From positions 1 to 64,000 of the forward strand of contig NZ_QZWD01000020.1 in the NCBI RefSeq assembly GCF_003602005.1: a stretch of DNA of 64,000 bases. The letters are read 5' to 3'. Shown one piece after another: positions 3,842-55,233 of the stretch (positions are counted from its first letter, which is position 1; each line of letters opens with the position of its first letter). The notes under the pieces were generated by a model that searched no databases, had not been told where the DNA came from, and saw nothing but the letters and a program-made list of their open reading frames with translations. This stretch comes from Salinisphaera sp. Q1T1-3 (GTDB taxonomy: Bacteria > Pseudomonadota > Gammaproteobacteria > Nevskiales > Salinisphaeraceae). Both the position numbers and the translations under genes were made by a program.

Positions 3842-4135
3842 ATGTCGCCCAACGGGCTGTTTCACTGGGTCGGCGAGCAGATCGGACGCTTGATCCGGGC
3901 CATCGTCGATGGCCTGGCCTGGTTCTTCGGCCATATCTTCGGGGCGATCGACAGTTTCTACGGGGGACTGGCGGACGAGCTCGGCATCGGTCGCTCGATG
4001 ACCGCGCTGATCATTCTCGTGATCGGTCTTGTGCTGCTGTTGAGCGGTCTGCGCCACGCCATGCGTCGCCGGCTCGTATCGGGCCTGCTGATTGGCGGAC
4101 TCGGCGTTTTGTTACTCGGCTGGCTGATTCACTAG
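3842..4135 (+). CDS. Small inner-membrane protein of unknown function, between two repeats
   Basis: 97 residues from ATG 3842, chosen because GGGGAG lies 5-10 bases upstream; ATG 3830 is in frame but has no such site. A moderately hydrophobic amphipathic N-half (FHWVGEQIGRLIRAIVDGLAWFFGHIFGAID) is followed by two clear membrane helices, about residues 56-70 and 78-95, with basic residues (RHAMRRR) between them. I do not recognise a family. It stands alone, bounded by repeat copies A and B in the same orientation. The G of its TAG stop is the first base of copy B; the sequence after copy B shows that the stop before insertion was probably TAA. Confidence 0.65.
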   Translation: MSPNGLFHWVGEQIGRLIRAIVDGLAWFFGHIFGAIDSFYGGLADELGIGRSMTALIILVIGLVLLLSGLRHAMRRRLVSGLLIGGLGVLLLGWLIH

Positions 4136-4427
4136 GGCCTGTTGATGTTTCGTGCGAGTCCGCGCCCAGTGCGCCCTGAAATTGACGATGGGCGGCAAGA
4201 CGAGGCGTCGCAGGCATAGCGTGTCATTCTGCGCCAGCCTGCTAGAACGCTGTATTGCCGTCATGTTTTTGATTTTGGGGCGCTTGTCCCGAAGAGTTGG
4301 GCCACAAATCCCGCCCGGCGGCGTTGCGAGCCTTGATCGTGGCACGCCACGCTCGGCAACTAGCGCCTTGCCGGACACGCTGCGGTCTCTCGACGAAAAG
4401 GCGCTCGAACGAAACATCAACAGGCCC
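4135..4427 (+). mobile_element. MITE-like repeat family 1, copy B
   Basis: This 293-base element runs from GGGCCTGTTGATGTTTCG to CGAAACATCAACAGGCCC and is flanked by TA on both sides (4133-4134 and 4428-4429). The terminal inverted repeat is about 18 bases. Its first G completes the TAG stop of the upstream small membrane protein. I see nothing else in the 144 bases between this element and the diguanylate cyclase stop. Confidence 0.9.
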
Positions 4428-4571
4428 TAAGACGAACGCCAATCGCTGTATTGTCGTCCGGAAATTCGCCAGACGACGTGCCAAGCCCGGCATCGCTAGG
4501 CGTATGCGAAAACTCGATGACACGCCCCGGCGGCCCGGGGGCTCATCGTCGCCAACGCCGCTGGCGCGTAT

Positions 4572-5867
4572 TCAGCCCGTCACGGCATACCCGAGCAGCG
4601 TGTTCGGGTCTCGCCATTCGCGAATCGATGCAATCCGCACGCAGTTGCGCCCGGCGGCCTTGGCCCGATAAAGACGCCGATCAGCCTCTCCGATGATCTC
4701 GTCCAGCGGCGTCGTCAGCCGATCCGGGGCCACCCAGCAGACGCCGATGCTCACACTCAGCCAGCGATGCGCCTGGGAACTGGCCGGCCTGATCTGCAGC
4801 GCTTCAATCGCCGAGCGCACCCGATCGGCCAGCCCCTGCGTGTCGGCCTCTTCGATATCCGTCCAGAACACGAGGAATTCCTCGCCCCCGTAGCGACCAC
4901 AGACATCGTTGCGACGCGCACACGGGCGCAGCGCATCGGCGACCCGTCGTAATGCGGTATCGCCGGCCTGATGGCCATATTCGTTGTTGTAGGCCCCGAA
5001 ACCGTCGATATCCACCAGGGCCAGTCCCACGCCGCGACCGGCCCTGGCTGCGCTCGTCGGTTTCAGCGCGTTATGGAGCGCAGCCTCCAGCGCCGGCCGA
5101 TTGAACAGCGATGTCAGGCCGTCGTAACGCGCCATGTAACGCAGGAGCGTTTCGTTGAGCCACGACCAGCGTATGAAATATTCGAGCGAATATCCCGAAC
5201 AGAACCCGATAGCCACAATCACCCCGCTGGCGAAGATGTGATAACGCGTGGTCAGCGTCGGCTCGACCCAGGCATGCTCGACAAAAACCGCCAGCAGCAG
5301 CCCGACCACGCCCGCCGGCACGGCGACCCAGAAATGCAGGCGCGAGAGCGTGAACAAGGCCAGCAACGTGGCTGCGGCCAGTTCGAGCGGCATCGGGAAA
5401 CCGACGGCGGCGTCGAAGACACGCTGTGTCATGAGCCCCGCAAGCGTGACGTAGACTGCCAGCAGGGTCGCGACGTCGGAACACCGCGCACGCGGTCGCA
5501 ACAGAATCGCCACAGCCGCGAGTACCAGCATCGGCAACTGCACGCTGAGCTGTATCACGCGGGAGACAGCCTCGGCATCGGGCGGCAGGCCAAGAGCCCG
5601 TACGTCCAGTACGACCGAGAGCAGCGTCGCGGCCAGACCGATGAAAATCATCGCCAGCCGACTGTATTGCCCCGTCCTGCGAAAATACGTCCGGAACTCG
5701 GCCTCGACACGCGGCTGAAACCGCAGCCAGCGAAAACCGAGCCGCAACTGCTCGGAAATGTCACTGACGCGCGCGGCGGCATCGCCGCGCTGGTCCGCAC
5801 ACTCCCATTCGTCAGGCTCAAGCGCACGATGACGCGTCAGCGTGGCCTGTGATACCGCTCCGTCCAT
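4572..5867 (-). CDS. Membrane diguanylate cyclase (GGDEF domain)
   Basis: It makes the second messenger c-di-GMP from two GTP. The 431-residue protein has a cytosolic N-terminus of about 75 residues, six or so membrane helices (about 76-245), and a C-terminal GGDEF domain. The signature is intact as GGEEF (residues 327-331), and an RxxD inhibitory I-site (RRND) lies five residues before it, so the enzyme should be active and product-inhibited. The membrane part probably senses a signal, but I do not recognise it as a named sensor. The gene is divergent from the SDR at 5953, with 85 bases between them. A purine-rich AAGGGGG lies 12 bases upstream of ATG 5867. Confidence 0.92.
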   Translation of the reverse strand: MDGAVSQATLTRHRALEPDEWECADQRGDAAARVSDISEQLRLGFRWLRFQPRVEAEFRTYFRRTGQYSRLAMIFIGLAATLLSVVLDVRALGLPPDAEAVSRVIQLSVQLPMLVLAAVAILLRPRARCSDVATLLAVYVTLAGLMTQRVFDAAVGFPMPLELAAATLLALFTLSRLHFWVAVPAGVVGLLLAVFVEHAWVEPTLTTRYHIFASGVIVAIGFCSGYSLEYFIRWSWLNETLLRYMARYDGLTSLFNRPALEAALHNALKPTSAARAGRGVGLALVDIDGFGAYNNEYGHQAGDTALRRVADALRPCARRNDVCGRYGGEEFLVFWTDIEEADTQGLADRVRSAIEALQIRPASSQAHRWLSVSIGVCWVAPDRLTTPLDEIIGEADRRLYRAKAAGRNCVRIASIREWRDPNTLLGYAVTG

Positions 5868-5952
5868 GCACTATTACCCCCTTGGTACCCCGCATCGCGC
5901 CGCAACCCCACGACGTAACATGATCGGTACGACGAACATCCGTGAATATTAA

Positions 5953-6708
5953 ATGAATACACCTGTTCTGGTGCAAGGCGGCGCCCATGGTCTGGGGTTG
6001 GCGCTGGTCACCGCGCTGTTGACCGATGAATCGCTGCACGTCACCGCCACCACCCGCGACCCGGCCGCCGCGGATGCGTTATCCGCCCTCCAGCAGAAAC
6101 ACGGCGAACAGCGACTGGATATCCTGGCGCTGGATATCACCGACGAGGACAGCATTGCCCGGGCACGCACGCACATGGACGAACGTCACGGCCGGCTCGA
6201 TCTGTTGATCAACTGCGCCGGGCTGTTGCACGACGAGGCCAACGGCATGTGGCCGGAAAAAAGACTGGCCGACATCGATCCCGCATATCTGGCCCGCAGC
6301 TTCGCCGTCAACGCCACCGGCCCCGCGCTGATGATCAAGCACTTCGCGGATCTGATGACCCACGGCGAGCGGGCCGTGCTGGCCAGCATCAGCGCCCGCA
6401 TCGGCTCGATATCCGACAACGGCTACGGCGGCTGGTATGCCTATCGCGCGGCCAAGGCAGCCCAGAACCAGCTCACGCGAACTGCCGCGATCGAGCTCGC
6501 ACGCAAGTCGCGGGCCTTGATCTGCGTGGGGCTTCATCCCGGCACCGTCGACACGGGCCTGTCGGCGCCGTTCCACAAGCGCGTTCCCGAAGGCCAGCTC
6601 CAGACGCCCACCCAGGCAGCCAAACATCTGCTCGGCGTCATTGCACAACTCTCACCGGCGGACTCGGGCGATCTGTTCGACTGGGCCGGTCAGCGTATCA
6701 CCCCATAA
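5953..6708 (+). CDS. SDR-family oxidoreductase (C-factor/CsgA-like)
   Basis: A 251-residue NAD(P)-dependent short-chain dehydrogenase. The cofactor motif is GGAHGLGLA near residue 9, the NAG-type motif appears as INCAGLL, and the catalytic Y-x3-K is YAYRAAKAA near residue 163. The sequence resembles the SDR group named after the myxococcal C-factor, whose substrates are mostly unknown. It stands alone, followed by a 284-base gap that holds the promoter of the ABC importer operon. A specific reaction cannot be assigned. Confidence 0.82.
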   Translation: MNTPVLVQGGAHGLGLALVTALLTDESLHVTATTRDPAAADALSALQQKHGEQRLDILALDITDEDSIARARTHMDERHGRLDLLINCAGLLHDEANGMWPEKRLADIDPAYLARSFAVNATGPALMIKHFADLMTHGERAVLASISARIGSISDNGYGGWYAYRAAKAAQNQLTRTAAIELARKSRALICVGLHPGTVDTGLSAPFHKRVPEGQLQTPTQAAKHLLGVIAQLSPADSGDLFDWAGQRITP

Positions 6709-6920
6709 GCCGGTCGCTGGCGTCGCCACACAAACCCAACAGCGGAGCCGACGCCCGCAATAAAAAGCAGATTCGATTCGATAACCTGACGTTATTGCAA
6801 ACCGTCGTCATACTATCGCCTTATTTTCAGGCGCATCCAGGTCACGCACCTTCTTCGCATGGTCGTGGCCGTAAATGCCGATCGAACGCGATTTGCGCCG
6901 GGCACGAAATCAAGAAAACG

Positions 6921-6956
6921 ATAAAACGACTGCATTAAAAAGCCACATAAAAACAG
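6921..6956. promoter_or_regulatory. AT-rich operator/promoter candidate of the rhaSTPQ-type operon
   Basis: In a GC-rich setting this stretch carries three A-tract units, ATAAAACG (6921), ATTAAAAAG (6934) and ATAAAAACAG (6947-6956). The last is the exact reverse complement of CTGTTTTTAT, which also occurs at 21410-21419 between the kinase and aldolase genes. The same DeoR-family repressor may bind both, but this is inferred from one shared 10-mer. Confidence 0.35.
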
Positions 6957-6992
6957 ATCGCCCTCGGGGGCTGATCGCGGAGGAGAACCGGC

Positions 6993-8000
6993 ATGTCGCG
7001 ACACGCTTTTTTCAAACGATGGGCCGTTTTGGGCGGCACGACCCTGGCACTGGCACTCGGCAGCAGCGCGACCTGGGCCGAGCAGTACACCGTCGGGTTC
7101 GTGCCCAAGCTCGTCGGCATTCCCTACTTTGCCGCCATGAAGCAGGGCATGGACAAGGCCGGCAAGCAGTTCGACATGAAGATCGTGTATCAGGGTCCGA
7201 GTTCGGCGGATGTCGCTCAGCAGGTCAATATCGTCTCGAGCCTGATCAACCAGGGCGTGGACGCGATCGGCGTGGCTGCCAACAGCCCGACCGCCTTCGG
7301 CCCGATGGTCAAGAAGGCGCGCGACAAGAACATCGTGTTCTATTCCACCGACTCGCAGGTCGACGCCGACGGCAATCAGCTGCGCGTCTCCCAGGTCAAT
7401 GACAAGGCACTGGGCTACAAGGTCATCGATGTACTGGCCGCGCAACTCAAGGCCAATACCGGCAAGACCAGCGGCAAGGTGGCCTTCGTCTCCGGTGGCT
7501 CCACGGCCACGAACCTGAATACGTGGATCAAGTTCATGAAGGCGCGTCTGGCCGACAAGTATCCGGACATCGAACTGGTCGACGTTCAGTACGGCGGCGA
7601 AGACGTTACCAAGGCGACCAACATCACGAACCAGCTGATCTCGGCCTATCCCGATCTGGACGGCATCGTCGGCGTGAACACCACATCCGTGCCCGGCGCG
7701 GCACAGGCAGTGCTCACCTCCGGCAAGAAGGGCCAGATCGCGGTAACCGGCATCACCGACCCGAACACCATCCGCCCGTATGTCATGAACGGCACGGTGA
7801 ACAAGGTGGTGCTGTGGAACCCGATCGACCTGGGCTATCTGACCGGCTGGGGCGTCAAGCAACTGCTTGAAGGCAAGTCCTTCAAGCCGGTCAACGATGT
7901 GCCGGGCCTCGGCAAGGTCAAGTACGACGAACAGACCAAGACATTGCTGCTCGGCCCGCCCATGGTCATCGACAAGTCCAATATCCAGATGGACTTCTGA
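6993..8000 (+). CDS. rhaS: RhaS-type sugar ABC transporter substrate-binding protein
   Basis: Periplasmic binding protein that delivers a sugar or polyol to the importer encoded downstream, 335 residues. A signal peptide (cleavage near ATWA-EQ, residue 29) is followed by a periplasmic-binding-protein-4 fold beginning YTVGFVPKLVGIPYFAAM. This fold is shared by rhamnose (RhaS) and autoinducer-2 (LsrB) binding proteins, so the ligand is not fixed by family alone. A perfect GGAGGAG ribosome site precedes ATG 6993. It heads a four-gene operon; the ATPase starts 70 bases later. A rhamnulokinase-type gene 12 kb away supports a rhamnose-like ligand. Confidence 0.85.
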   Translation: MSRHAFFKRWAVLGGTTLALALGSSATWAEQYTVGFVPKLVGIPYFAAMKQGMDKAGKQFDMKIVYQGPSSADVAQQVNIVSSLINQGVDAIGVAANSPTAFGPMVKKARDKNIVFYSTDSQVDADGNQLRVSQVNDKALGYKVIDVLAAQLKANTGKTSGKVAFVSGGSTATNLNTWIKFMKARLADKYPDIELVDVQYGGEDVTKATNITNQLISAYPDLDGIVGVNTTSVPGAAQAVLTSGKKGQIAVTGITDPNTIRPYVMNGTVNKVVLWNPIDLGYLTGWGVKQLLEGKSFKPVNDVPGLGKVKYDEQTKTLLLGPPMVIDKSNIQMDF

Positions 8001-8070
8001 TCGCCGGATTGGGCGCCCCGGCCGACACGCGTGACGTGTCGGCCGACCTGACCACTTCGAGAGGGCTCCG

Positions 8071-10592: not shown

Positions 10593-10604
10593 AAAGAGGG
10601 GCGC

Positions 10605-11564: not shown

Positions 11565-12194
11565 GCACGGCTGCTGTCTCGAGCATGGCCGTCGAACCGG
11601 GCGATCGCGACTGTCGCCATGGCTCTGCATCGCGTCGGCAAGATCTGACCAGCCGGTCACGAGCCGCGAACGACGGGAGGCAGGCCGCGGGATTGCCTCG
11701 GACTCTGCCGCGCGTCGCCGCGCTTGCGACGGGAGGCAGGTCGTGGCGAGCGATGCCTATGCGTATCAGTCGGCCGCCCCGTCTTACCGTCGTCGCGGTC
11801 GACGGCAGCGGGCCCATGGCTTGCGCCAGGCGGCCCCCGGGGCGGCACTGAGCCGATGCCGTCAGACCTGTATCGGATCGTTTATCTTTCGGCCTGCAAG
11901 GTCGCGTCGGCGGGGCTCAAGCGACACGCAACTCGATTTCACCGGACGAATCGACAACATACGGCGCTCATCTCGTTGCGGACCGTTTAGGCGGTTCGTG
12001 AACACCTACCCGGCATGTCATTCGCCGGTTCGTGCGGTCGCCCCCCGCGCCAGGCCACAGCGCAACGCCGCCAATGCTCGCCCCGGCGCCCTTATCGCGC
12101 GCGTGTACGTCACCACGGCCGAACGATCGTGTCGGCGGCGAGCGTACGCGCCCGTACGCCCGCCGGGCATTGTGCTATTCGCTGCAGGCTGCCA
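11565..12194. other. 630-base gap between convergent transport genes, no gene seen
   Basis: The frames that are open here encode arginine- and proline-rich strings without a ribosome site or recognisable motif. A 14-base direct repeat, CGACGGGAGGCAGG, occurs at 11671-11684 and 11727-11740. I see no clear terminator hairpin with a T-run and no RNA gene. Confidence 0.5.
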
Positions 12195-13634: not shown

Positions 13635-13667
13635 CCTCATATCTCCGGCTTGGGGCCGACGGCGGAC

Positions 13668-14468: not shown

Positions 14469-14490
14469 CAGTGATCTCCGTTGGTGCTTC

Positions 14491-15404: not shown

Positions 15405-16400
15405 ATGAACGAATCGCGCCGCATGCCGAATTCCACCGATGTTGCCCGCCGCGCAGGCGTGTCCCAGTCGGCGGTATCGCGGACGTATTCGCCGGGTGCG
15501 AGCGTCTCGCAGAGCACCCGGGATGCCGTACTCGCCGCCGCCGCCGAGCTCGGCTATCGACCCAACGCCCTGCCCGGCATCATGCAGGGCAAGCGCTCGC
15601 GGATGATCGCCGTGGTCATCGGCGGCATGGGCAACCCGTTCTATGCGCGCGTACTCGACACGCTGGCCACACGCTTGTCTGCCGCGGGCCAGCAGATGGT
15701 CCTGGCCCGTGTGGACAGCAATCACTCGCTGGACGCGGTCGCCGATGATCTGGCGCGCTATCGTGTCGACGGTGTCTTCAGCGCGCTGGCCGTCACACAG
15801 CCCGATACCCGCGATGCGCTGGCGGCCTTCGGCATCCCGGTCGTGTCGTTCAACACGCCGCTCCACGGCCCCTCGGTCCACAGCGTGAGCTGCGACAACG
15901 CCGCCGCCGGTGCCGCGGCCGCGCAGCTGTTGCACGCTCGCGGCGCGACGCGCCCGGCCTTCATCCACGGTCCGGAGAACAGTCCGGCGGAAATCGAGCG
16001 TTTCACCGGCTTCGCCGATGCCATCCGCGCGCTCGGCCTGCCGTCGCCGCTGGAGGCCCGTGGCAACTACGACTACGCCGGCGGCCGAAGCGCCGCGGCT
16101 GCCTTGATGACCGCATCGACCCCGCCTGATGCGTTGTTCGCCGCCAACGACCTGCTCGCCCTCGGGGCCCTCGAGGCACTACGGCACGATCTCGACCGTG
16201 CGGTTCCCTCCGACGTGCAGGTCATCGGCTTCGACGATATCGACATGGCCGCTTGGCAGGCGTTTCAACTGACCAGCTTTGCCCAGGATATCTCCGGCAT
16301 GGTCGATCGTGCCGTCGAACTACTGCTATCCGAGCAGACCACGACCGAAGGACAATGCCTGCGTGTTCCCGCCCGTCTGATTGAACGCGCCACGACCTAG
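15405..16400 (+). CDS. LacI-family transcriptional regulator
   Basis: A 331-residue repressor with the N-terminal LacI helix-turn-helix (TDVARRAGVSQSAVSRTYSP, about 10-29), hinge helix region (YRPNALPG) and a periplasmic-binding-protein-like effector domain from about residue 65. It is divergent from the SDR-SDR-sugar-porter operon and most likely controls it in response to the sugar. ATG 15405 has no strong ribosome site; ATG 15423 (MPNSTDV) is a possible shorter start. The stop is TAG, whose G is the first base of repeat copy C. Confidence 0.9.
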   Translation: MNESRRMPNSTDVARRAGVSQSAVSRTYSPGASVSQSTRDAVLAAAAELGYRPNALPGIMQGKRSRMIAVVIGGMGNPFYARVLDTLATRLSAAGQQMVLARVDSNHSLDAVADDLARYRVDGVFSALAVTQPDTRDALAAFGIPVVSFNTPLHGPSVHSVSCDNAAAGAAAAQLLHARGATRPAFIHGPENSPAEIERFTGFADAIRALGLPSPLEARGNYDYAGGRSAAAALMTASTPPDALFAANDLLALGALEALRHDLDRAVPSDVQVIGFDDIDMAAWQAFQLTSFAQDISGMVDRAVELLLSEQTTTEGQCLRVPARLIERATT

Positions 16401-16681
16401 GGCCTTGTTGAGGTTTCGTTCGAGCGCCTTTTCGTCGAGAGACCGCAGTGTGTCCTGCAAGGCGCGAGTCGCCGATCGTGGCGTGCCACAATCCAGACTG
16501 GCAACGCCGCCGGGCGCGATTTGCGGCCCAACCCAAAGGGACAAGTGCCCCAAAATCAAAAACACGACGGCAATCCAGCGTTCTAGCACGCTGGCGCAGA
16601 ACGACTGCGCGGCGCGTGCTACGTCTCGTCTTGCCGCAGAACAGGGCTTGGCGCGGACTCGCGCGAAACCTCAACAGGCCC
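16400..16681 (-). mobile_element. MITE-like repeat family 1, copy C
   Basis: This 282-base element is inverted relative to copy B. Its left end here, GGGCCTTGTTGAGGTTTCG, carries one inserted T, and its right end is CCTCAACAGGCCC. TA flanks both sides (16398-16399, 16682-16683). Its first G is the last base of the lacI-type gene's TAG stop. Confidence 0.88.
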
Positions 16682-18808: not shown

Positions 18809-18975
18809 GAGCCTGTTGATGTGTCCCGCGAGTCCGCGCCAAGCGCTGTTTTGCGGCAATCCAGCGCTTGTCCCTTTGGGTTGGGCCGCCCGCACAATCG
18901 ACGATGGCCGCCCTGCGACGCGCGCCGTACAGGACGCGATCTGCGGCCCCAACGCGGCGCTCGTGCGACACAGCC
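18809..18975 (+). mobile_element. MITE-like repeat family 1, short copy D
   Basis: A 167-base internally deleted copy. The left end is GAGCCTGTTGATGTG with TA before it; the right end (GCGACACAGCC, then TA) has lost the TCAACAGG block. The last C on the plus strand is the G of the DeoR gene's TAG stop. The stretch 18748-18806 resembles a further, very degenerate right arm (hairpin ATCGTATCGGCATGCCGTGAT-like, then GGACACCC). Confidence 0.75.
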
Positions 18976-19730
18976 TAGTAGATCAGCTGCACGTCCATGG
19001 CCGCGAGACGCTCGACCCAGGCCGGCTCGGGGGCGATGTCGGTGACCACGACATCGATATCGGCCAGATCACAGATCTGGACCAGCGCATTGCGATCGAA
19101 TTTCGTATGGTCGACGAGCAACGCTCTGCGCCGGGCATGGCGCATCATCACCCGCTTGATCTGGGCCTCGCCGAGGTTGGACTCGAGCACGCCGGCCTCG
19201 CTGTGCAGGGCCTTGCAGCCAATCAGCGCCCAGTCGACGTTGAACCGGGCCAGCGATTCCTCGGCGAGACCACCGACGAAGGCCAGCGATTTCTTGCGCA
19301 GTTCCCCGCCGACTGTGATCAAGGCGTGTTCGCTTTCCGCGCCGACCGCGGCCAGACGAAGCGAGTTGCTGATCAACTGCAGATCGTGCCGGTCATTCAA
19401 GGCATCCAGCATCTCGCAGGTTGTCGAACTGGAATCGAGCATCAGTGCCTCGCCGTCGCCGATCAGCCGGGCGGCCTTGTGCGCGATCTGCTGCTTGGCA
19501 GCCCGATTGAACGATTCACGCGTCAGATACGGCAGGTCCTGACTGCGCTCGACGATCGCCACCGCGCCGCCGTGCGTGCGCTCGAGCACGCCTTCGCTTT
19601 CGAGTTTCTCGAGATCACGACGCACCGTTTCCCGCGTGACGTTGAAACGTTCGGCCAGATCCGCGACACCGACCTTGCCGTCGGCGAGCAGCACGTCGAG
19701 GGTCTTTTGTTTGCGTTCGGCGGGCAGCAT
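18975..19730 (-). CDS. DeoR-family transcriptional repressor
   Basis: A 251-residue regulator with the DeoR helix-turn-helix at the N-terminus (ADLAERFNVTRETVRRDLEKLE, about 20-41) and a DeoRC sugar-phosphate sensor domain (SSTTCEMLDAL, then SNSLRLAAV). Such repressors are released by phosphorylated sugars, often the product of the kinase they control. The rhamnulokinase-type gene lies 140 bases upstream on the same strand. It probably controls the kinase/aldolase divergent unit. The TAG stop is completed by the end of repeat copy D. Confidence 0.88.
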   Translation of the reverse strand: MLPAERKQKTLDVLLADGKVGVADLAERFNVTRETVRRDLEKLESEGVLERTHGGAVAIVERSQDLPYLTRESFNRAAKQQIAHKAARLIGDGEALMLDSSSTTCEMLDALNDRHDLQLISNSLRLAAVGAESEHALITVGGELRKKSLAFVGGLAEESLARFNVDWALIGCKALHSEAGVLESNLGEAQIKRVMMRHARRRALLVDHTKFDRNALVQICDLADIDVVVTDIAPEPAWVERLAAMDVQLIY

Positions 19731-29149: not shown

Positions 29150-29418
29150 GGGCCTGTTGATGTTTCGTGCGAGCCCGCGCCAAGCGCTGTTCTGCGGCAA
29201 GACGAGGCGTAGCAGGCGCCGCGCAGTCATTCTGCGCTAGCCTGCTAGAACGCTGTATTGCCGCAAAACAGCGCTTGTCCCTTCGGATTGGGCCGCAAAT
29301 CGCGCCCGGCGGCGTTGCGAGTCTGGATCGTGGCACGCCATGATCGGCGACTCGCGCCTTGCCGGACACACGGCGGTCTCTCGACGAAAAGGCGCTCGAA
29401 CGAAACCTCAACAGGCCC
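29150..29418 (+). mobile_element. MITE-like repeat family 1, copy E
   Basis: This 269-base element runs from GGGCCTGTTGATGTTTCG to CGAAACCTCAACAGGCCC. TA flanks the right side; the left has GA. It has two long imperfect hairpins: AAGCGCTGTTCTGCGGCAA near 29178-29196 pairs with TTGCCGCAAAACAGCGCTT near 29258-29276. It lies between convergent genes and its last base completes the TAG stop of the hydrolase. Confidence 0.88.
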
Positions 29419-30395
29419 TAGCCCGCCTTGCGTTCCAGCGCCTCGCCTCGATGCATCACCAGCTCGCCATCGATCAGATCACGAATCCAGCCGACGTAGC
29501 GCGGCAACAGGCGCGGCGGCAGATCATGGCCCAGGCCGTCGACCTCCTCGTAATGCACATTCGGCAGCCAGGCCGCAGTATCCCGCCCATGGGCGACCGG
29601 CAGCAGCGGATCGTCGCGGCCGTGGATCACCAGGGCCGGCTGGCGAATGTCCGACAGCAAATCCCGCCGCGAACGAGCCGAGAGCACGGCGAGCATCTGG
29701 CGATGGGTGCCGGCCGGGGCATATGACCGCTCGGCGTTCTTGAGACACTCGCTGTACCAGTCTTCCTCGCTTCGGGCCAGGCGCGGGTCACGGCTGCCGA
29801 TCAGACGCATGGTACGCGCCATGTGCGCTGCCACGTCTTCGGCGTCTCGGCTTTTCGGCGCCCGCGCCAGGCGCAGCAGAATCCGCAAACGGCTCCGCGG
29901 CAGTTTGGGATGACCCGAGGTGGACATGATGGAAGTCAGCGTCTTCACGCGTTCCGGCTCACGCGCCGCCACGACCTGGGCGATCATCCCGCCCATCGAT
30001 ACCCCGACCAGATGGGCTGCCGTGATCTCGAGCGCGTCCATCAGGGCCACTGCGTCATCGGCCATGTCCTCGATTTGATACGGTGCGCCGATGGGGCGCT
30101 TGGCCACCCCGCGCATGAAGGCCTTGAACGGCGACGGATATCGGCGTGCCGTCTTGATCTGCGTCGACAGACCGATATCGCGATTGTCGAACCGGATCAC
30201 GCGTAGCCCTGTATCTGCCAGTGCCCGACAGAAGGCGTCCGGCCAGGCACGCAATTGCATGCCGAGACCGACGATCAGCACGAGCGCTGGATCCCGCGTG
30301 CGACCGAACTGCTCGTAGGCCAGCGTCAGGCCATTGGCTTCCACCGTATCGACGATATCGGCGCCCTGCAGCGCCGGCGCAAGAAACTCTGCCAT
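29418..30395 (-). CDS. Alpha/beta-fold hydrolase
   Basis: A 325-residue esterase/lipase-like enzyme. The oxyanion segment VLIVGLGMQ, the nucleophile elbow GVSMGG with Ser133, and the late histidine in DGLGHDLPP give a full catalytic triad set; the acid is probably in VIHGRDDPLLP. Such proteins hydrolyse esters, but substrate is not predictable. The gene is divergent from the DUF1992 gene, with 51 bases between the starts. Its TAG stop lies in the junction with repeat copy E. Confidence 0.88.
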   Translation of the reverse strand: MAEFLAPALQGADIVDTVEANGLTLAYEQFGRTRDPALVLIVGLGMQLRAWPDAFCRALADTGLRVIRFDNRDIGLSTQIKTARRYPSPFKAFMRGVAKRPIGAPYQIEDMADDAVALMDALEITAAHLVGVSMGGMIAQVVAAREPERVKTLTSIMSTSGHPKLPRSRLRILLRLARAPKSRDAEDVAAHMARTMRLIGSRDPRLARSEEDWYSECLKNAERSYAPAGTHRQMLAVLSARSRRDLLSDIRQPALVIHGRDDPLLPVAHGRDTAAWLPNVHYEEVDGLGHDLPPRLLPRYVGWIRDLIDGELVMHRGEALERKAG

Positions 30396-30446: not shown

Positions 30447-30839
30447 ATGAGCCTACTCGACCGACTCGCCGACGCCCATATCGAAACCGCCGCGGCACAG
30501 GGCGCCTTCGACGATCTGCCCGGCGCCGGACGGCCGTTGCCGCCGGACGAGGCCCGCCACGTCCCGGAACAGCTACGTGCCGGCTATCGATTGTTGAAGA
30601 ACGCCGGCTGTGTTCCGCCGGAAATGGCGAGCCGGCAGGCGTTGCGCGAGGTCGAGGATCTACTCGCCCACGCCGCACCGGACTCCGAGGAGAACCGGCG
30701 CCTGACGCGCCGAGCGCGCCGAGCGCGCCGGCTCGAACTGCAATTGTCGCAGTCACCCCGCGGCCGCGCGCTGCTCGCCGACCGTGATTACGCCGATGCC
30801 CTGCGGGACCGGCTCACAGGACAGGAGAAATCAACGTGA
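30447..30839 (+). CDS. DUF1992 (DnaJC28-like) protein
   Basis: 130 residues starting MSLLDRLADAHIETAAAQGAFDDLPGAGRPL, the hallmark of DUF1992, a domain also found in DnaJ homologue C28. The function is unknown. A basic RRARRARRLELQL segment follows. The longer in-frame opening upstream overlaps the divergent hydrolase and is rejected. TATACT (30433-30438) lies only 9 bases before ATG 30447, so the transcript may have a very short leader. The stop overlaps the GTG start of the GNAT gene (GTGA). Confidence 0.88.
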   Translation: MSLLDRLADAHIETAAAQGAFDDLPGAGRPLPPDEARHVPEQLRAGYRLLKNAGCVPPEMASRQALREVEDLLAHAAPDSEENRRLTRRARRARRLELQLSQSPRGRALLADRDYADALRDRLTGQEKST

Positions 30840-31390
30840 ATGCGCCCGCCCCGATCCATCTGCTCGATGCGGACACACCGGAACGTCTGGCCGATCTTTC
30901 GGCGCTGGCCCACATTATCTGGCAACAACATTACGTGCCGTTGATCGGCCAGGCCCAGGTCGAATACATGCTCGCCGAGGGCTACTCGGACGAGGCCCTG
31001 ATGCGCGATCACGAGGCCGGCAAGCGCTTCACCCTGGCCATGCGAGGGGAGCGGGCAATCGGGTTCGCCGCCGTCAGCCCACCCGAGCCGTCCGAGCCCG
31101 ACTGTGCCTGGCTGGACAAGCTATACGTCGCCCAGGAGGCCCGCAATCTCGGTGTCGGGCGGCGTCTGGTCGAGCGCGCCGCCTGGCAGATCGATGAATT
31201 CTGGTCGGCCGAGAAAATGGCCCTACGGGTCAACCGACACAACGACAGCTCCATCACGGCCTACAAGGCGATGGGCTTTGCGATCTGCGACACGGACGTG
31301 AAACCCATCGGGCAGGGGTTCGTGATGGATGATTACATCATGCGTGCCCCACGGGCGCATCTGGCCAATCGATCGGCCGCCTCAAACTAG
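30836..31390 (+). CDS. GNAT-family N-acetyltransferase
   Basis: Transfers an acetyl group from acetyl-CoA to an amine, 184 residues. The acetyl-CoA loop is ARNLGVGRRLVERA (about 102-115), preceded by the LDKLYV strand, with a C-terminal AYKAMGFAICDTDV as in many small-molecule and RimI-like acetyltransferases. The GTG start overlaps the DUF1992 stop by 4 bases. The substrate is unknown. The G of its TAG stop is the first base of the family 2 repeat. Confidence 0.88.
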   Translation: MNAPAPIHLLDADTPERLADLSALAHIIWQQHYVPLIGQAQVEYMLAEGYSDEALMRDHEAGKRFTLAMRGERAIGFAAVSPPEPSEPDCAWLDKLYVAQEARNLGVGRRLVERAAWQIDEFWSAEKMALRVNRHNDSSITAYKAMGFAICDTDVKPIGQGFVMDDYIMRAPRAHLANRSAASN

Positions 31391-31580
31391 GGCCTGTTAT
31401 GAACCCGGCATAAAAATAGATGAGTTTTCGGGTTGATAACGCACGTGTGCGACAGCACGCGCGCCACGGCCAACGGCCGTGAAGCCATTGAAAATAAAAA
31501 GACGGACAAGTGCCGGCGTTTTTTTCGACGGCGTTGAAAACAGCTGACGTCGTCAGCTGTTTGGGTGCCGGATTAATAAC
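31390..31580 (+). mobile_element. Repeat family 2, best preserved copy
   Basis: About 190 bases from GGGCCTGTTATGAACCCGGC to GTGCCGGATTAATAAC. The ends form an imperfect inverted repeat (GTTATGAACCCGGCA against GTTATTAATCCGGCA). The outermost GGGCCTGTT matches family 1, but the interior is unrelated. The block GAAGCCATTGAAAATAAAAA and the following GTGCCGGCGTTTTTTTCGAC recur at 16798. The rest of the gap to 31696 is featureless. Confidence 0.75.
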
Positions 31581-35105: not shown

Positions 35106-35127
35106 GCCGGGCCCCGCGCGGTTGAGC

Positions 35128-35265
35128 CGCCCACGACAAATCGGCTATCGGCGTACTACGGCATGGCCAAGCTGAATCGTGGCAGGCCACGACCGGCGAC
35201 TTACGCCTTGCAGGACACGATTTGCGGTCTCCAACGCGGCGCTCGAACGAAACATCAACAGGCCC
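35128..35265 (+). mobile_element. MITE-like repeat family 1, 5'-truncated copy F
   Basis: Only the right arm is recognisable. GCCGCCCACGACAAATCGGC at 35128 matches the middle of copy A, and the right end is CGAAACATCAACAGGCCC followed by TA. The left end is lost near the S9 peptidase stop. The last base completes the TAG stop of the convergent membrane protein gene. Confidence 0.8.
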
Positions 35266-36302
35266 TAGCGTAACGGCACGATATGACGGAAACCGGCGGC
35301 CTCATTCGTCAGTCGCTCGGTGACACGGCCATTACGGTCATGCGCCACGGCCCAGCCGAAATCGACGTCGGGCCCGTCGTCGCGCCGGGCGACCGCACCG
35401 CGTGACGGGCTGAAGAGCCACCGCGCCGGGCGCGGACGCGCGCCGTCGAAAGTCAGCCGTACGGCGGTTCCCTCGGGATAATGCATGGGGCCGAGTGAAA
35501 ACGGGGCCGTCAGCGCACCGCCGGCAGACAGCACACGACGGTCGGCATCCAGTGCCAGGCGCACCGTCAGACGGGCACCGGCGATGATCGTCGTCCGGTC
35601 ATCGGCGGTATCGATGATCCAACGATCCGCGCCGCGGCGACCCGAGACATAGCGCGCGCCTTCCGAGGCCCGCAGTGCACTACCTGCCGGCAGCCGGATC
35701 CCGTCGGCCTGCTGATCGGCAGCGAGCACGCAGCGCCGGATCGTGCCCGGGCTGCCGTCAGCGTGCAGATCGAGTGCAACCGGTGTGCCCGCCCGACAGC
35801 GCCAGCCGGCCCACGACTGGTCGACAGCCAGATAGACGGTCGCGCGATCCGGTACATGGCCTTGCGCCCCGTTGACTGACCGGAAATGGCGTTCCATACG
35901 CGATGCGCGGAACCCATACACCGAGACCGGCTTGGGAAAACGAGCCGCGCGAAACGAGGCCGGCTCGTCCGGCTCTCGCAGCACAAGCCGCGTACCGGCC
36001 GGCATCGGCTGGCCGGCGATCACGCGCGGGGCATCGAGCGTGGTGCGTCGCAGCACGTAATGGTGGATCGCGCCGCCCAGAATATAGACGCCGAGAAAGA
36101 GCTGGGTGGCGACAAACGGCAGACCGAACACGCCGAGAATACCGAGCGAGAATCCGCGAACCCATCGATGTCGCCCGGCAAACGCTCGAAATCGACGGCT
36201 GATCGACAGCGCGACGAGACCGACGACGAGCAGCAGCAACGCGATCTGCGAGAGTGTCAGCACGACGGCCAGCGCGAGTGACGGTAGGGGGGCAAAAATC
36301 AT
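35265..36302 (-). CDS. Membrane-anchored protein of unknown function
   Basis: 345 residues. Two N-terminal membrane helices (about 8-32 and 48-72) precede a large, mainly beta-rich domain with many short V/T/G-rich repeats, for example PMPAGTRLVLREPD, VPDRATVYLAVDQSW and IIAGARLTVRLALDADRR. It looks like an extracytoplasmic domain. I do not recognise a family. The codon use is normal for the window. Its TAG stop is formed at the junction with repeat copy F, so the C-terminal end is unaltered if the target TA was part of the original stop. Confidence 0.7.
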   Translation of the reverse strand: MIFAPLPSLALAVVLTLSQIALLLLVVGLVALSISRRFRAFAGRHRWVRGFSLGILGVFGLPFVATQLFLGVYILGGAIHHYVLRRTTLDAPRVIAGQPMPAGTRLVLREPDEPASFRAARFPKPVSVYGFRASRMERHFRSVNGAQGHVPDRATVYLAVDQSWAGWRCRAGTPVALDLHADGSPGTIRRCVLAADQQADGIRLPAGSALRASEGARYVSGRRGADRWIIDTADDRTTIIAGARLTVRLALDADRRVLSAGGALTAPFSLGPMHYPEGTAVRLTFDGARPRPARWLFSPSRGAVARRDDGPDVDFGWAVAHDRNGRVTERLTNEAAGFRHIVPLR

Positions 36303-36414: not shown

Positions 36415-36624
36415 GGGCCTGTTGATGTTTCGTGCGAGTCCGCGCCAAGTGCTGCCTGCAATCGGCTTTGGGCCGGCAGGAATAGGCATCGCATGCATCC
36501 CGTGTGTAAGTACTGGCACGCGGGATTGTCGCCCTGCCTTTGATTTCGGGGCGCCTGCGACTCGCGCCTTGCCGGACACGATTCGTAGGCGGAAACACTG
36601 CGCTCGCACAAAACATCACTGGGC
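36415..36624 (+). mobile_element. MITE-like repeat family 1, degenerate copy G
   Basis: The left end is perfect (GGGCCTGTTGATGTTTCG), the right end is damaged (ACATCACTGGGCTC). The hairpin core is largely lost; ATTGTCGCCCTGCCTTTGAT near 36523 matches the mid part of copy A in diverged form. It lies in the promoter region between the divergent membrane protein and LysR genes. I see nothing else in the 432-base gap. Confidence 0.75.
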
Positions 36625-38690: not shown

Positions 38691-39351
38691 ATGGACAAGC
38701 AATACAGCCCCTGGAACCGCGATCTGTTTGCCGATTGCGCCGTCTGCAATCTCGGCCCCGCCGATCTGATCTTTGTCTCCGGCATGGGGTCCGAAGACAT
38801 CGAGACCGGCGCCATACAACATCCGGGCGACATCGGCGCCCAGGCCCGGTATGCCTATCAGCGCATCCAGACCATTCTGGCGAACAACAACGCCCATCTC
38901 GGCGAAATCGGGCGCATCGTGGTCTATCTGACGGACATGCGTCACAAGGACATCTACGAACAGGTCCAGGCTGAATACTTCGCTGGACTGGCCATGCCGG
39001 TGCATTCCCTAGGGTCTGTTGATGTGTCGTTCGAGCGCCGCGTTGGCGCCACAAATCGTGTCCGGCAAGGCGCGAGTCGCCGATCGTGGCGTGCCATGAT
39101 CAAGGCTCGAAACGCCGCAGGGCGCGATTTGCGGCCCAACCCAAAGGGACAAGCGCTGTTCTGCGGCAATACAGCGTTCTAGCACGCTGGCGCAGAACGA
39201 CTGCGCGGCGCGTGCTACGCCTCGTCTTGCCGCAGAACAGCGCTTGGCGCGGACTCGCACGACACATCAACAGGCCCTAGTGGCTGTCGCCAGTCTGGCC
39301 TGGCCCGAAATGCTCGTCGAAATCGAGGTCACGGCCGTGCACATGCGTTGA
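38691..39351 (+). pseudogene. RidA/YjgF-family gene interrupted by repeat copy H
   Basis: Reads MDKQYSPWNRDLFADCAVC from ATG 38691, with the Rid core (RYAYQRIQTILANNNAHLGEIGRIVVYLTDMR). After 107 codons (ending HSL at 39009-39011) the frame enters copy H. The missing tail VAVASLAWPEMLVEIEVTAVHMR lies directly after it, ending at 39351. Excising 39012-39277 plus one copy of TA joins CTA to GTG and restores a 130-residue protein, the usual Rid length. In place of the catalytic arginine it has His/Ser (PVHSLVAVA), as in non-archetypal Rid groups. As it stands, translation would add about 57 element-encoded residues and stop at 39182, so function is probably lost. Confidence 0.9.
39012..39277 (-). 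mobile_element. MITE-like repeat family 1, copy H, inside a ridA-like gene
   Basis: 266 bases, left end GGGTCTGTTGATGTG, right end CACATCAACAGGCCC, flanked by TA on both sides (39010-39011, 39278-39279). Orientation is opposite to copy B. Internal arms AAGCGCTGTTCTGCGGCAA and TTGCCGCAGAACAGCGCTT are exact complements. This is the best-defined insertion in the window because the split gene gives the empty site. Confidence 0.93.
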
Positions 39352-46419: not shown

Positions 46420-46585
46420 CGCCGCGGCCCGCGGCTGGGCAGGACTTGAAAAACAAAGACGAACAGCTCGCCGGCATTCGTGGTCGATGGCTTCACGGCC
46501 GTTGGCCGTGGCGCGCGTGCTGTCGCACACGCGCGTAATCAAGCCGAAAAATCATCTATTTTTATGCCGGGTTAATAACAGGCCC
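46420..46585 (-). mobile_element. Repeat family 2, inverted copy
   Basis: Read on the minus strand it begins GGGCCTGTTATTAACCCGGC and ATAAAAATAGATGA, matching the copy at 31390 through CACGGCCAACGGCCGTGAAG, after which it diverges. The flank at its end is TC, not TA. The distal end is unclear. The rest of the 46251-46702 gap holds no gene that I can support. Confidence 0.7.
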
Positions 46586-50167: not shown

Positions 50168-50290
50168 CTGATCCCCTTTTCCCCGATCCCATGGTTCCGA
50201 ACGCCTCGCAGCAACATTCGTGCCCGGTGCGACACCGCGCAACATGCCCGATCGGCGGCCCGCGGTCACGCGCGACACCGCAGGCGCGCG

Positions 50291-51079: not shown

Positions 51080-51302
51080 GGATTCTTCCTTGTCGACGAC
51101 ATGTGACAGCGACGGCCGGCACGCGCGCCCTCGCCGAGTGGGTCGGTATCCTCGCCGATCGCCGGACATGGAACCACCCGGCAGGACCGAGGGGCCGGGT
51201 TCGGGCGCCAACGGCGCATCCAGCGCCGTTATTTATCGGTAGGATCAGATATAGAAACGCTCTTTCCAACGCGTTGTGCCGGACACGACGCATAGACCAT
51301 TT

Positions 51303-52892
51303 ATGCAACTGACTTTTCTCGGCGGCGCCGATGCCGTGACCGGTTCGGCGAGCCTGCTGACGGACGACCGGCTCGGCGTGCGCTGCCTGATCGACTGCGG
51401 GGCCGAGGCCGGTCGCGCGCCCGGCGTGCCGGACGGCGCTCCACCGCTGGGCTTCGATGCCCGACGACTGGATTTCGTCCTGCTCACGCATGCCCATCGC
51501 GATCATTCCGGGCGTCTGCCGCAGCTGCACCGAGCCGGATTTCGCGGCCCGGTGTACTGCACCGAGGCCACGGCCTGGATGACACGCATCGCCCTGCTCG
51601 ATGCCGCCAAGTTCTCGCGCGAATACAGCGCCGACGATGTCGAGATGATCGATTTCCAGCCGCTCGATCTACGGCCCGGTTTCGTCTTCGACGTGCCCAT
51701 GCGGCTGCACGGCGTAACAGTCGCCCTGCATCGCAGTGCGCACATCCTGGGCGCGGTCGCCGCCACCATCGGCTGGCGAAGCCGCATCGGTACGGCACGG
51801 ACCATCGTGTTCAGCGGTGATATCGGCGGCAACACGCCGGACAACCCCTATCAGTCGCTGCTTGCCGGGCAGGCATTGCCGGGCCAGGCGGACTACATGG
51901 TCATCGAATCCACGCGCGGCGCCGAGCCCGCCCGCGATGCCACCTACAAGGCTTTTCCCGATCGGCTCGATGCCTGGGCCGATTTGCTGGCCGACAGCGA
52001 TGCACGCGGTGGCGGGCCGGTCGTCGCGCCCTGTTTCGCGATCCACCGGGCCCAGGAACTCTGGTTCGATCTGGACGCGGTCCTGCGACGCTCACCGGCC
52101 GGTCTGCCGGATGCCGCAGGCCGGCCGCGCTGGCTGGCACTCGATGCGCCGCTGGCCGCCCGCATGACCGAAGTCTATGCCGCCATACTCGGCGATACCG
52201 CCGAGCGCGACGGTGCCCGCGTCTGGCGCAATCCGCATCTTGCCGAACGGTTGGGCCTGGCCGACGAGACGGCCGTCGATACGTATCTGGCAAGTCTCTG
52301 GGCACGGGTGAGCGGCAATCGCGCCCCCGGCGGCACATTACGCGCCATGCACGATCCGGCCCTGTCGCGTGTGATTGCGCTGGCCGGCAGCGGCATGGCC
52401 GAGGGTGGGCGCATCGTCGATTTCATCACCGACCAGATTCACAACCCCGCCGCCACGATCGTGCTGTGCGGTTACGCGCCGGCCGAGACCGGCGCCGGTC
52501 GTCTACGCCGACTGGCCGCCGGCGAGTGGCCGTCCGACACGCCGCTGACGCTCGGTCAGGCCCGCATCGATCCGACTCGGGTCCGGGCCCGGATCGTGGA
52601 TTTCGGCGACTATTATTCCGGCCATGGTGATATTGAAACCCTGTGTCGTTTCGTCTTCGAGCGGCCGCCCGAGGCCCGGCCGAGCGGCACGACGACAGTG
52701 TTCATCAACCACGGCGACCCGGCCGGCCGTGCCGGTCTGTCGGCGGCCCTGAGTGACCGGGCCGCCCAGGGCCACCCGGGCGATCGCATGCTCTCGCGCG
52801 TGATTCTGCCCTCGGCCGGTCAGGCCTTCGATCTGGATTCGCCCGACAATGCGCGTCGCGAGCGCGTCATGCCGCGCCTGCGCACGACATGA
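51303..52892 (+). CDS. Beta-CASP metallo-hydrolase (MBL fold, RNA processing type)
   Basis: 529 residues. The metallo-beta-lactamase core starts QLTFLGGADAVTGSASLL. The zinc motif is THAHRDHSG with His63, His65, Asp67 and His68, later joined by a histidine in HRSAHILGA. The second half has the beta-CASP features (SGMAEGGRIVDFI and a late histidine in GHGDIETLCRF). Family members are endo- or exoribonucleases related to CPSF-73 and RNase J-like Ysh1. No strong ribosome site precedes ATG 51303; GTG 51276 is the alternative. Confidence 0.88.
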   Translation: MQLTFLGGADAVTGSASLLTDDRLGVRCLIDCGAEAGRAPGVPDGAPPLGFDARRLDFVLLTHAHRDHSGRLPQLHRAGFRGPVYCTEATAWMTRIALLDAAKFSREYSADDVEMIDFQPLDLRPGFVFDVPMRLHGVTVALHRSAHILGAVAATIGWRSRIGTARTIVFSGDIGGNTPDNPYQSLLAGQALPGQADYMVIESTRGAEPARDATYKAFPDRLDAWADLLADSDARGGGPVVAPCFAIHRAQELWFDLDAVLRRSPAGLPDAAGRPRWLALDAPLAARMTEVYAAILGDTAERDGARVWRNPHLAERLGLADETAVDTYLASLWARVSGNRAPGGTLRAMHDPALSRVIALAGSGMAEGGRIVDFITDQIHNPAATIVLCGYAPAETGAGRLRRLAAGEWPSDTPLTLGQARIDPTRVRARIVDFGDYYSGHGDIETLCRFVFERPPEARPSGTTTVFINHGDPAGRAGLSAALSDRAAQGHPGDRMLSRVILPSAGQAFDLDSPDNARRERVMPRLRTT

Positions 52893-52903
52893 GTCGGCAA
52901 GGC

Positions 52904-53701
52904 TCAGACCTCGTCCTGCACCTGGCCATAGGCCAGAAGCGAGAACAGCAATGTCCCACCGATCACGTTGCCGATGAGGGCCGGGATGATGAAATGCCAG
53001 ATCACGGCGCCGATGCCGACGTGGCCGGCGAACATGAGGCCAAACGCCTCGGCCGAGCCGACGATGATATGCACGAAGTCGCCGATGCCGATCAGGTAAG
53101 CCATCAACAGAATCATCCACAGCTCGAAACCACGCGCGTTCGGCAGCATCCAGACGATGGCCGCGACCATGAAGCCGGCCGGTACGCCCTGGAGCAGGGT
53201 GTTCCCGAAACTGTGCGTGAACAGAGGTGCCGCGATCTCGGTCAGCGCGTGGTTGAGCTCGGGCGTGGCCACGCCGTAGTGCACGAAACCGGCAGCGATG
53301 AACGTGCCGACCAGGTTGCCCAGCAACACGATAGCCCAGAGCCGTGCGGTCAGACCGAAGACACGCGACGAGCGCTCGCGCATCACGGGCAGCACCACGG
53401 TGATGGTATTTTCCGTGAACAACTGCATGCGCCCGAGAATGACCACGACGAAACCCAGCGCGTAGCCGAAATTCGCCACGAGCGGTCGCCAGGGCGTATC
53501 GGGCAGCGCGGCATGCAACAGCCCTTCGGCCACCACCGACAGGGTGATCGCGAACCCGGCCGCCAGGGCCGACCACCAGAGCGACAAAGGCGCGCGTGAC
53601 AGTTCTTCCTCGCCGTCGCGACTGATGGCCTGATAGACCGAATGCGCGGTCAGTCGGGTACCGTGAATGGCCTGTGTCACCTGATCCCGATCATTGCTCA
53701 T
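52904..53701 (-). CDS. Formate/nitrite transporter family channel (FNT)
   Basis: A pentameric membrane channel for formate, nitrite or similar anions, 265 residues with about six membrane helices. The family marks are WSALAAGFAI, HSFGNTLLQGVPAG and WHFIIPALIGNVIGG. A perfect GGAGG lies before ATG 53701; the first ten residues of any longer frame do not resemble the family. The convergent beta-CASP gene ends 11 bases from its stop. Repeat copy I lies 80 bases upstream of its start, so the element forms its 5' flank. Confidence 0.9.
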   Translation of the reverse strand: MSNDRDQVTQAIHGTRLTAHSVYQAISRDGEEELSRAPLSLWWSALAAGFAITLSVVAEGLLHAALPDTPWRPLVANFGYALGFVVVILGRMQLFTENTITVVLPVMRERSSRVFGLTARLWAIVLLGNLVGTFIAAGFVHYGVATPELNHALTEIAAPLFTHSFGNTLLQGVPAGFMVAAIVWMLPNARGFELWMILLMAYLIGIGDFVHIIVGSAEAFGLMFAGHVGIGAVIWHFIIPALIGNVIGGTLLFSLLAYGQVQDEV

Positions 53702-53780
53702 CGCGAATCCTCCGTCGCGTCTGCATGACCGCTCAGCCTGGCGAGAGACGGTATCGCAATACAACCGGCAAGATCACCTA

Positions 53781-54097
53781 GGGCCTGTTGATGTTTCGTT
53801 CGAGCGCCTTTTCGTCGAGAGACCGCAGTGTGTCCGGCAAGGCGCGAGTCGCCGATCGTGGCGTGCCACGATCCAGACTCGCAACGCCGCAGGGCGCCCA
53901 TCGTCGATTTTTCATGGGCGGCCCAACCCCAAGGGACAAGCAACAGCAAGACAAGGCATCGCTCATGTGGCATGGCTCAGCCACGTGAGCGCTCGATAAC
54001 GCCGGATTGTCGTCGCTGCGTGACAAGACTTTTACCCGGTTTTTCGGCGCTATGTCGCGGCCCTGGTACGGCCGCATACTTGCCCCGCAACAGGCCC
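53781..54097 (-). mobile_element. MITE-like repeat family 1, chimeric copy I
   Basis: 317 bases. The left end is perfect (GGGCCTGTTGATGTTTCG, TA at 53779-53780) and the first 160 bases match the family. From about 53945 the sequence no longer matches the other copies, but the right end GCAACAGGCCC, followed by TA, is restored. Its last base is the G of the GGDEF gene's TAG stop. It fills most of the gap upstream of the FNT gene. Confidence 0.8.
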
Positions 54098-55233
54098 TAG
54101 CCGTTTTCAGATACCCGCGCCTCGTCCCCCTCTGCCTCACGGGCAGCTGCGGTGACCGACGTCGCCCGAACTTTATTGCGCCCAGCCCGCTTGGCGGCGT
54201 ACAGACGACGGTCGGCTTCGCTGAACATGGTGTCGAAAGTGTTCCGGGCGAGATCGAACAGGACCACGCCGAGGCTCAGCGTGACGACGATGGCATGGCC
54301 GTGGGTCCTGATCGGCGCATCGGCGACACAGCGGCGCAGCCGTTCGGCGTGCATTTCAGCCTCGGCCTGATCCAGAGCGAACATGCAGATCGCCAGCTCC
54401 TCGCCGCCGATCCGCCCGAGTAGATCCTGCTGTCGACAGTTGTGAAGCAATCGCCCGGAGACGGCCGCCAGCACACGATCGCCCACATCGTGACCGTAGG
54501 TATCGTTGATCTTCTTGAAGAAATCGATATCGATCAAGATCAAAGCGACGGTGCGTTGCGCGCTGTCGGGCAGATGACGCACAGCCGCCCGGCGCTGCTC
54601 GAACATCTCGCGAAAACGCCCGCGTGTCGCCAAACGGGTGAGCGAATCCACGTCGGCTCGTTCGCGCAACTTCCGATCGGCACGCGTCAGCTCGATCTCG
54701 TGCACGAGCGACAACGCGAACAACGCGACCGAACACAGCATCACGTCCGCGACCATCGATATATCGTCGATAGAGGGCTGAAACTTGAAGCGCGAGACCA
54801 CCACCACGCCGGCGAGCACGAGAAAGCCGCAGCCGATCAGCGAGCCGGACCGCGGCCCCAGCAATCGATGACACAGCGTGGGGATCAACAATATCCAGAC
54901 GAACACCGACAGGTTGGGCGCCGAATACAGGGCATAGACGAGCGCACCGAGAAACGGCAGCAGATAACTCCACACCGCGCGATTGACGGGCTCACCGTGG
55001 CGCAGCTTGTATTTGATGACGGCCGCGAAGCCGACCATCGTGAGTTCGAGTATCGCCAGATAGCTGCTGCCTAGAGCGAAGTTGAGCGGCGCGAAGATCA
55101 CGCCACAGCCCATGGTCAGCCACAGCAGCATATGCAGGACGCTGGCGCGGCGACTGCTGTCGCCGTCGGAAATATGACGATCCGGCACGGCGCTCAGGCG
55201 CCCCGCTCGCGCCGGACCGAGCCCACCGACCAT
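54097..55233 (-). CDS. Membrane diguanylate cyclase (GGDEF domain, GGEEL)
   Basis: 378 residues from ATG 55233, or a few more from GTG 55257. About six membrane helices (30-185) precede a GGDEF domain. The signature is GGEEL at residues 276-280 from this start, with Leu in place of the final Phe; an RxxD I-site (RQQD) lies five residues before it. GGEEL is tolerated in some active cyclases. The last codons and the TAG stop lie at the junction with repeat copy I. This is the second membrane c-di-GMP cyclase in the window. The 286 bases up to the next gene hold no gene. Confidence 0.88.
   Translation of the reverse strand: MVGGLGPARAGRLSAVPDRHISDGDSSRRASVLHMLLWLTMGCGVIFAPLNFALGSSYLAILELTMVGFAAVIKYKLRHGEPVNRAVWSYLLPFLGALVYALYSAPNLSVFVWILLIPTLCHRLLGPRSGSLIGCGFLVLAGVVVVSRFKFQPSIDDISMVADVMLCSVALFALSLVHEIELTRADRKLRERADVDSLTRLATRGRFREMFEQRRAAVRHLPDSAQRTVALILIDIDFFKKINDTYGHDVGDRVLAAVSGRLLHNCRQQDLLGRIGGEELAICMFALDQAEAEMHAERLRRCVADAPIRTHGHAIVVTLSLGVVLFDLARNTFDTMFSEADRRLYAAKRAGRNKVRATSVTAAAREAEGDEARVSENG

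Follow-up and report, generated by a model that had tools for sequence, protein, structure and literature searches.

Short IS5-type elements with a CTAG preference supply the last base of many stop codons in Salinisphaera sp. Q1T1-3

The window analysed here, a stretch of 64,000 nucleotides from Salinisphaera sp. Q1T1-3 (bases 1-64000 of contig 12 in a genome of 3.87 Mb and 59 contigs, labelled G000), carries short repeated elements whose terminal G is the third base of TAG stop codons of neighbouring genes. These are probably IS5-type miniature inverted-repeat transposable elements (MITEs) that insert mostly at CTAG and come to lie on stop codons because this word is scarce in genes and frequent at their ends, stop codons themselves not being recognised. 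A preliminary description of the window had proposed that either transposition targets stop codons, for example through CTAG, or only such insertions survive. Both the CTAG target and survival were found to contribute, whereas a clear targeting of stops as such did not hold once CTAG replaced TA as the yardstick, the odds ratio (OR) falling from 9.2 to 1.43.

Genome-wide comparison was made on a sample of 1.664 Mb (43% of the genome) with 1,374 called genes. A strict end search with two patterns of 18-20 bp, allowing at most 3 mismatches and merging matches within 5 bases, gave 216 element ends, corresponding to 146 elements, 70 of them with both ends; these counts lack degenerate ends such as those at 18975 and 54097 of the window, which the search overlooks, and a stop at the lost end of the 76 elements with one recognised end only would go unseen. 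At least one edge formed the stop of a called gene in 55 of the 146 elements (38%), three of them at both ends, giving 58 such ends; this supersedes a first pass on 1.264 Mb, where 45 of 115 elements had a stop end. About 4% of the gene ends in the sample (58/1,374) use a transposon-supplied base in the stop codon. TA sites outside elements and not inside genes lie at stops in only 397 of 6,444 cases (6%), the remaining 6,047 being intergenic, and the excess over such sites on which the preliminary description had staked its proposal is strong (OR 9.2, p 1e-27). Both these and the following empty-site counts exclude TA or CTAG close to masked elements.

Measured against CTAG, the excess is far smaller. 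Empty CTAG sites numbered 85 at stops, 201 in intergenic DNA and 106 in genes, stops thus making up 30% (85/286) of those outside genes, and the excess per element was OR 1.43 (p 0.10). The preference for this word is evident from the C that precedes TA (position -3) at 139 of the 169 ends in the first sample, and from the 28 targets that could be reconstructed, comprising 23 CTAG, 3 CTAA and 2 ATAG, while CTAG represents 4.4% of the TA sites not inside genes. Its density is about 0.08/kb in genes and 1.1/kb outside, the latter figure including CTAGs at element edges. Within genes it occurs as CTA-G 89 times and as nCT-AGn 24 times, in-frame TAG being excluded, and codon usage suffices to explain this scarcity. 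The large share of elements at stop codons is likely due to this rarity of CTAG inside genes and its abundance at gene ends.

A second species of the genus, G005, gave a similar result with four end patterns at no more than 2 mismatches: 11 of 37 elements lie at stops, with OR 5.7 against TA (p 4e-5) and 1.27 against CTAG (p 0.66), although the 20 stretches were picked around known copies, which restricts the comparison to the ratio of stop to intergenic sites. Pooling both genomes gave OR 1.40 against CTAG (p 0.10).

The manner of insertion accounts for the working stops. Sides where the far flank is not C are informative, and in 14 of these 15 (10/10 in G005, 4/5 in Q1T1-3) the first element base is nevertheless G, so that the duplication consists of TA alone, which rules out a duplication of the four bases CTAG; the odd side, in Q1T1-3, begins with C in place of G and fits neither a TA nor a four-base duplication. 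Since only TA is duplicated and the G stays, insertion turns C-TA-G into C-TA-G...C-TA-G, in which TAG can be read from either side towards the element. The elements begin with G and end with C. The 58 stops at element edges consist of 50 C-TAG, 4 T-TAG, 1 G-TAG, 2 C-TAA and 1 T-TGA, and 50 of the 139 C-TAG stops in the sample adjoin an element. The expectation that insertion at the TA of any TAA or TAG leaves a working stop was borne out by the far-side bases, which imply a former TAG in 27 cases, TAA in three and TAT in one (n=31).

Once made, these stops are kept. Among 60 stop-phase ends 57 retained the flanking TA, the figure for other ends being 85 of 156 (OR 15.9, p 1e-9). Of the three stop-phase losses, one reads TGA and so remains a stop. 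Of the coding frames that reach an element end, 60 do so in stop phase and nine out of phase. Decay of edge TA pairs in the 1.664-Mb sample (n=74) was asymmetric, with CA in 32 cases and TG in 18. The very-short-patch repair protein Vsr converts CTAGG to CCAGG. It was considered as a cause both of the CTAG scarcity and of the decay by which CTA at edges often turns into CCA, and was rejected since no Vsr match was found in the Q1T1-3 genome; two of the 14 genomes of the genus have one.

Comparison with relatives also indicates that the elements sit at native gene ends. A 141-aa protein without Pfam match (C11:10489) has the same last residue in all 14 genomes of the genus. Its stop is an empty TTC-TAG in G003, G008, G011 and G012, and reads TGA (5), TTT-TAG (2) or TTC-TAA (1) in eight other relatives, whereas elements occupy it in Q1T1-3 and G005, having entered from opposite ends, so these two insertions are probably independent. 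The stop of the GNAT gene in the window carries a family-2 element in Q1T1-3 and a family-1 element in G005. The murI stop is occupied by an 860-bp insertion sequence (IS) in Q1T1-3, and in G005 the element there has a variant end (GGGACTGTTGCCGTTTCG), the only part of it seen; murI had no match in three of the 14 genomes, and the G006 locus lies on a short contig that is not readable to the gene end. For 13 of the 58 genes with element-made stops, best matches at 40% identity or more were available in the G005 stretches (four below 47%, some possibly paralogues). None of the 13 ends more than 10 residues from the query end, ten lie within 7, and two likewise end on an element.

The elements of the window, and the stop codons that they complete, are as follows.

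3500..3808, plus strand: family-1 element, with CAA (decayed) on the left and TAG on the right; no called-gene stop.
4135..4427, plus strand: family-1 element, copy B, with CTA before its first G on the left and TAA after its last C on the right.
4133..4135, plus strand: TAG stop of a small membrane protein gene (3830-4135), the G coming from copy B.
16400..16681, minus strand: family-1 element, flanked by TA duplications.
16398..16400, plus strand: TAG stop of a LacI-type regulator gene (15405-16400).
18809..18975, plus strand: shortened family-1 element, right end degenerate.
18975..18977, minus strand: TAG stop of a DeoR-type regulator gene (18975-19730, minus).
29150..29418, plus strand: family-1 element, with CGA (decayed) on the left and TAG on the right.
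29418..29420, minus strand: TAG stop of an alpha/beta hydrolase gene (29418-30395, minus).
31390..31491, plus strand: family-2 element, left part (ends GGGCCTGTTATGAACCCGGC), right end not located.
31388..31390, plus strand: TAG stop of a GNAT gene (30836-31390).
35113..35265, plus strand: family-1 element, right part.
35265..35267, minus strand: TAG stop of the gene named "membrane protein" in the preliminary description (35265-36302, minus), no Pfam match.
36415..36557, plus strand: family-1 element, left part, flank CTG; no stop codon.
39012..39277, minus strand: family-1 element, left flank CTA, right flank TAG; no called-gene stop.
46484..46585, minus strand: second family-2 element, one end, flank not TA.
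53781..54097, minus strand: family-1 element, right end diverged.
54097..54099, minus strand: TAG stop of a MASE6-GGDEF diguanylate cyclase gene (54097-55257, minus).

All seven TAG stops (at 4135, 16400, 18975, 29418, 31390, 35265 and 54097) coincide with ends of called genes and have an element's terminal G as third base, and copy B has CTA on its left and TAA on its right, both as first described. The strict end search recovers five of the seven, the right ends at 18975 and 54097 having been read by eye. In this respect the window lies above the average: 7 of its 11 elements or fragments have a stop, or 5 if the strict search is used, while the figure for the sample is 55 of 146. The gene ending at 35265 has a good match in G003 only.

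A likely source of transposase was found outside the window. An 860-bp element (L046:1142-2001, G000:C58) has the same ends as the short elements and encodes a 267-aa transposase that matches NCBIfam NF033580 (transpos_IS5_3) with 248.6 bits (cut-off 110), as well as PF13340 and PF01609 above cut-off. Its terminal inverted repeats start with GG and it has C-TA flanks on both sides. Its neighbours are murI (274 aa, Asp/Glu racemase family) on one side and, on the other, a convergent pyridoxal-kinase-like gene; the ends of the element complete the stops of both. This is the only full-length transposase copy found in the genome, the second match (121 aa, 97%) running off the end of contig 7. Relatives of the transposase include three in G005 at 91-93% identity, two of them with a TGA in the matched frame, and one near full-length at 64% in G006; the same search gave no match in G009. 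Judging by the common ends, the 267-aa protein may move the short elements in trans.

A DDE transposase, inverted repeats beginning with GG and a CTAG/YTAR target all agree with the IS5 family, whereas the four-base duplication of E. coli IS5 is absent, a result obtained on the whole set of elements with these ends. In other IS5 subgroups the duplication is two or three bases long. The placement in the IS5 family is kept, despite the two-base duplication, because of the transposase match. The short elements in turn have the properties of MITEs, being short, lacking a transposase gene, having inverted ends in common with the 860-bp IS, and occurring in many copies with a target duplication.

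The following course of events would account for these observations. Elements with IS5-type ends sit mostly at CTAG, with duplication of TA, and as CTAG holds TAG on both strands, a single insertion leaves C-TA-G at each edge. A gene arriving from the left and one arriving from the right each obtain a TAG stop in this way, and two new CTAG sites are created. Insertions inside genes presumably occur and are lost, most of those at stop codons would be neutral, and element-made stops are kept while other flanking TA pairs decay. A CTAG within a stop codon, being held by selection, may also stay available for longer than an intergenic CTAG that drifts.

Several results weigh against so simple an account. 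Counted per element end, 58 of 216 ends compared with 85 of 572 half-sites give OR 2.1 (p 0.0002), and the stop share of 38% exceeds the 26% expected from the observed target mix (p 0.0025). Half-site occupancy, from a table that excludes decayed ends, which lowers the non-stop bins, is 38% at stops (52/137), compared with 6-26% at other CTAGs downstream of genes (16/122 at a distance of 1-300 bases) and 9-24% at CTAGs facing gene starts, one bin of 2/2 apart. Furthermore, the genes were called by a purpose-written codon-usage caller and are not curated, the ends that link the transposase to the short elements extend over about 18 bp only, and the one far-side base in 31 that implies TAT (tyrosine) points to a truncated gene. 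The per-end, target-mix and occupancy figures are what a transposase drawn to gene ends beyond CTAG, by terminating transcription or translation or by DNA shape, would produce. Such attraction is nevertheless unlikely, as the excess per element is not significant in Q1T1-3 or in the pooled genomes, and longer-lived CTAGs in stop codons would give a deviation of the same sign. The residual 1.4- to 2-fold excess over CTAG probably reflects this longer life of stop-codon targets; a small true excess is likely, strong stop targeting is not. A bolder proposal, in which the ends are adapted to harmless insertion, each entry at a gene end rebuilding the stops on both sides and doubling the element's own target, and in which the transposase may favour gene ends beyond CTAG, can be entertained only tentatively.

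It appears improbable that the elements are retained at gene ends because they benefit the host, for instance by terminating transcription or stabilising 3' ends. Many elements do lie directly behind genes, and the transcript of copy B folds much better than shuffled sequences (z -6.4), but any element with inverted ends folds in this way, a simple scan of copy B revealed no terminator-like site, and elements at stops show little preference for either orientation relative to the gene (24 to 17 among 41 orientable cases), as do those elsewhere (65 to 62). A search of the window against Rfam gave no match. That the stops are accidents of insertion inside genes, TA and the element's G happening to make an in-frame TAG that truncates the product, is hardly credible as a general origin. 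The single TAT case fits it, since the best G005 match of that gene is 7 residues longer, whereas 30 of the 31 far-side bases imply TAG or TAA, and the G005 matches and the orthologues of the 141-aa protein end at or near the point where the element-bearing genes do; truncation is thus refuted for nearly all cases. Insertion at CTAG, with the scarcity of this word in genes and the survival of rebuilt stops, remains the favoured explanation.

IS5 of E. coli prefers CTAG, found in 15 of 24 listed targets and noted there as an under-represented word, and duplicates four bases, Py-T-A-Pu, according to the available part of that study (PMC5493358). The elements described here resemble it in transposase family and in the preference for CTAG, and differ in that TA alone is duplicated, the next base being the element's own G. 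A close parallel is MITEPsy1 of Pseudomonas syringae, described in the accessible sections of its report as an element of 100 nt in six copies with 18-nt ends, a four-base duplication and CTAG or YTAA as targets; that report enters it as IS5-like, with a question mark, and considers it a derivative of ISPsy2 (PMC3189936). Short length, 18-nt ends and the CTAG target are common to both, while the size of 100 nt, the six copies and the four-base duplication set MITEPsy1 apart; the sole mention of stop codons in those sections concerns broken transposase genes. Correia elements and RUP, short and multicopy with TA at their ends, are also similar, although the stop codons discussed for them, in the portion of the text available, lie inside the elements (PMC2229807) and those considered here lie at the edges. 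The transposase partner proposed here, being of IS5 type, belongs to a family other than that of IS630. The latter, judging by the title alone of the 1991 paper of Tenzen and Ohtsubo, reportedly transposes to TA in CTAG.

The main text of a 2024 review of prokaryotic MITEs contains neither "stop codon" nor CTAG (PMC10969869). The available parts of three further papers (PMC6382973, PMC2229807, PMC3119063) do not mention native stops remade by element edges, the first of them describing a MITE that truncates a gene. A literature search covering titles and the beginnings of abstracts, with most subscription journals outside its scope, returned no report of elements rebuilding stop codons. IS5-type MITEs in CTAG are already known, and what is worth recording is that only two bases are duplicated, next to a G that makes stops, and that the effect reaches this scale. 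A four-letter target preference can pass for the targeting of a functional site. Codon usage that keeps CTAG out of genes leaves a large share of the usable targets of an IS5-type element at stops, where its own ends repair the damage. This bears on gene annotation, on the rise of such elements to hundreds of copies in compact genomes and on the preference of IS5-type elements for a rare word, and a simple prediction follows for any CTAG-targeting element.

The Q1T1-3 genome contains 389 matches to the element ends (GGGCCTGTTGATGTTTCG) at no more than 3 mismatches, as compared with five for the reversed pattern. A search of 61 genomes with the pattern TAGGGCCTGTTGATGTTTCG (at most 2 mismatches) found matches in 14, namely Q1T1-3 and 13 relatives of the same genus, and in none of the 47 from other genera. 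In another sequence collection, exact matches to the element end were present in named Salinisphaera genomes and in a few Pseudomonas, Stutzerimonas and Endozoicomonas records. Among the 70 paired copies of the sample, 48 measure 264-310 bp and one is the 860-bp IS itself; 28 have TA on both sides. The second family has only its outermost bases in common with the first, and it too is found at stops, with 7 of 24 ends in the sample.

In G009, many of the matches listed are found no further than 130 bases from the start of a contig, the end often reading TTTCA, which suggests that near-identical copies collapsed during assembly. In Stutzerimonas stutzeri SD25545, elements of 45-50 bp with a similar end sequence (L042:471-515, L044:7426-7475) are hardly more than two back-to-back ends. 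Elements also adjoin other elements at a common TA, in G005 (L196 near 9926, L202 near 10736) and in Q1T1-3 (G000:C58 near 93269, where CA is found), as expected if each insertion creates two new CTAG targets.

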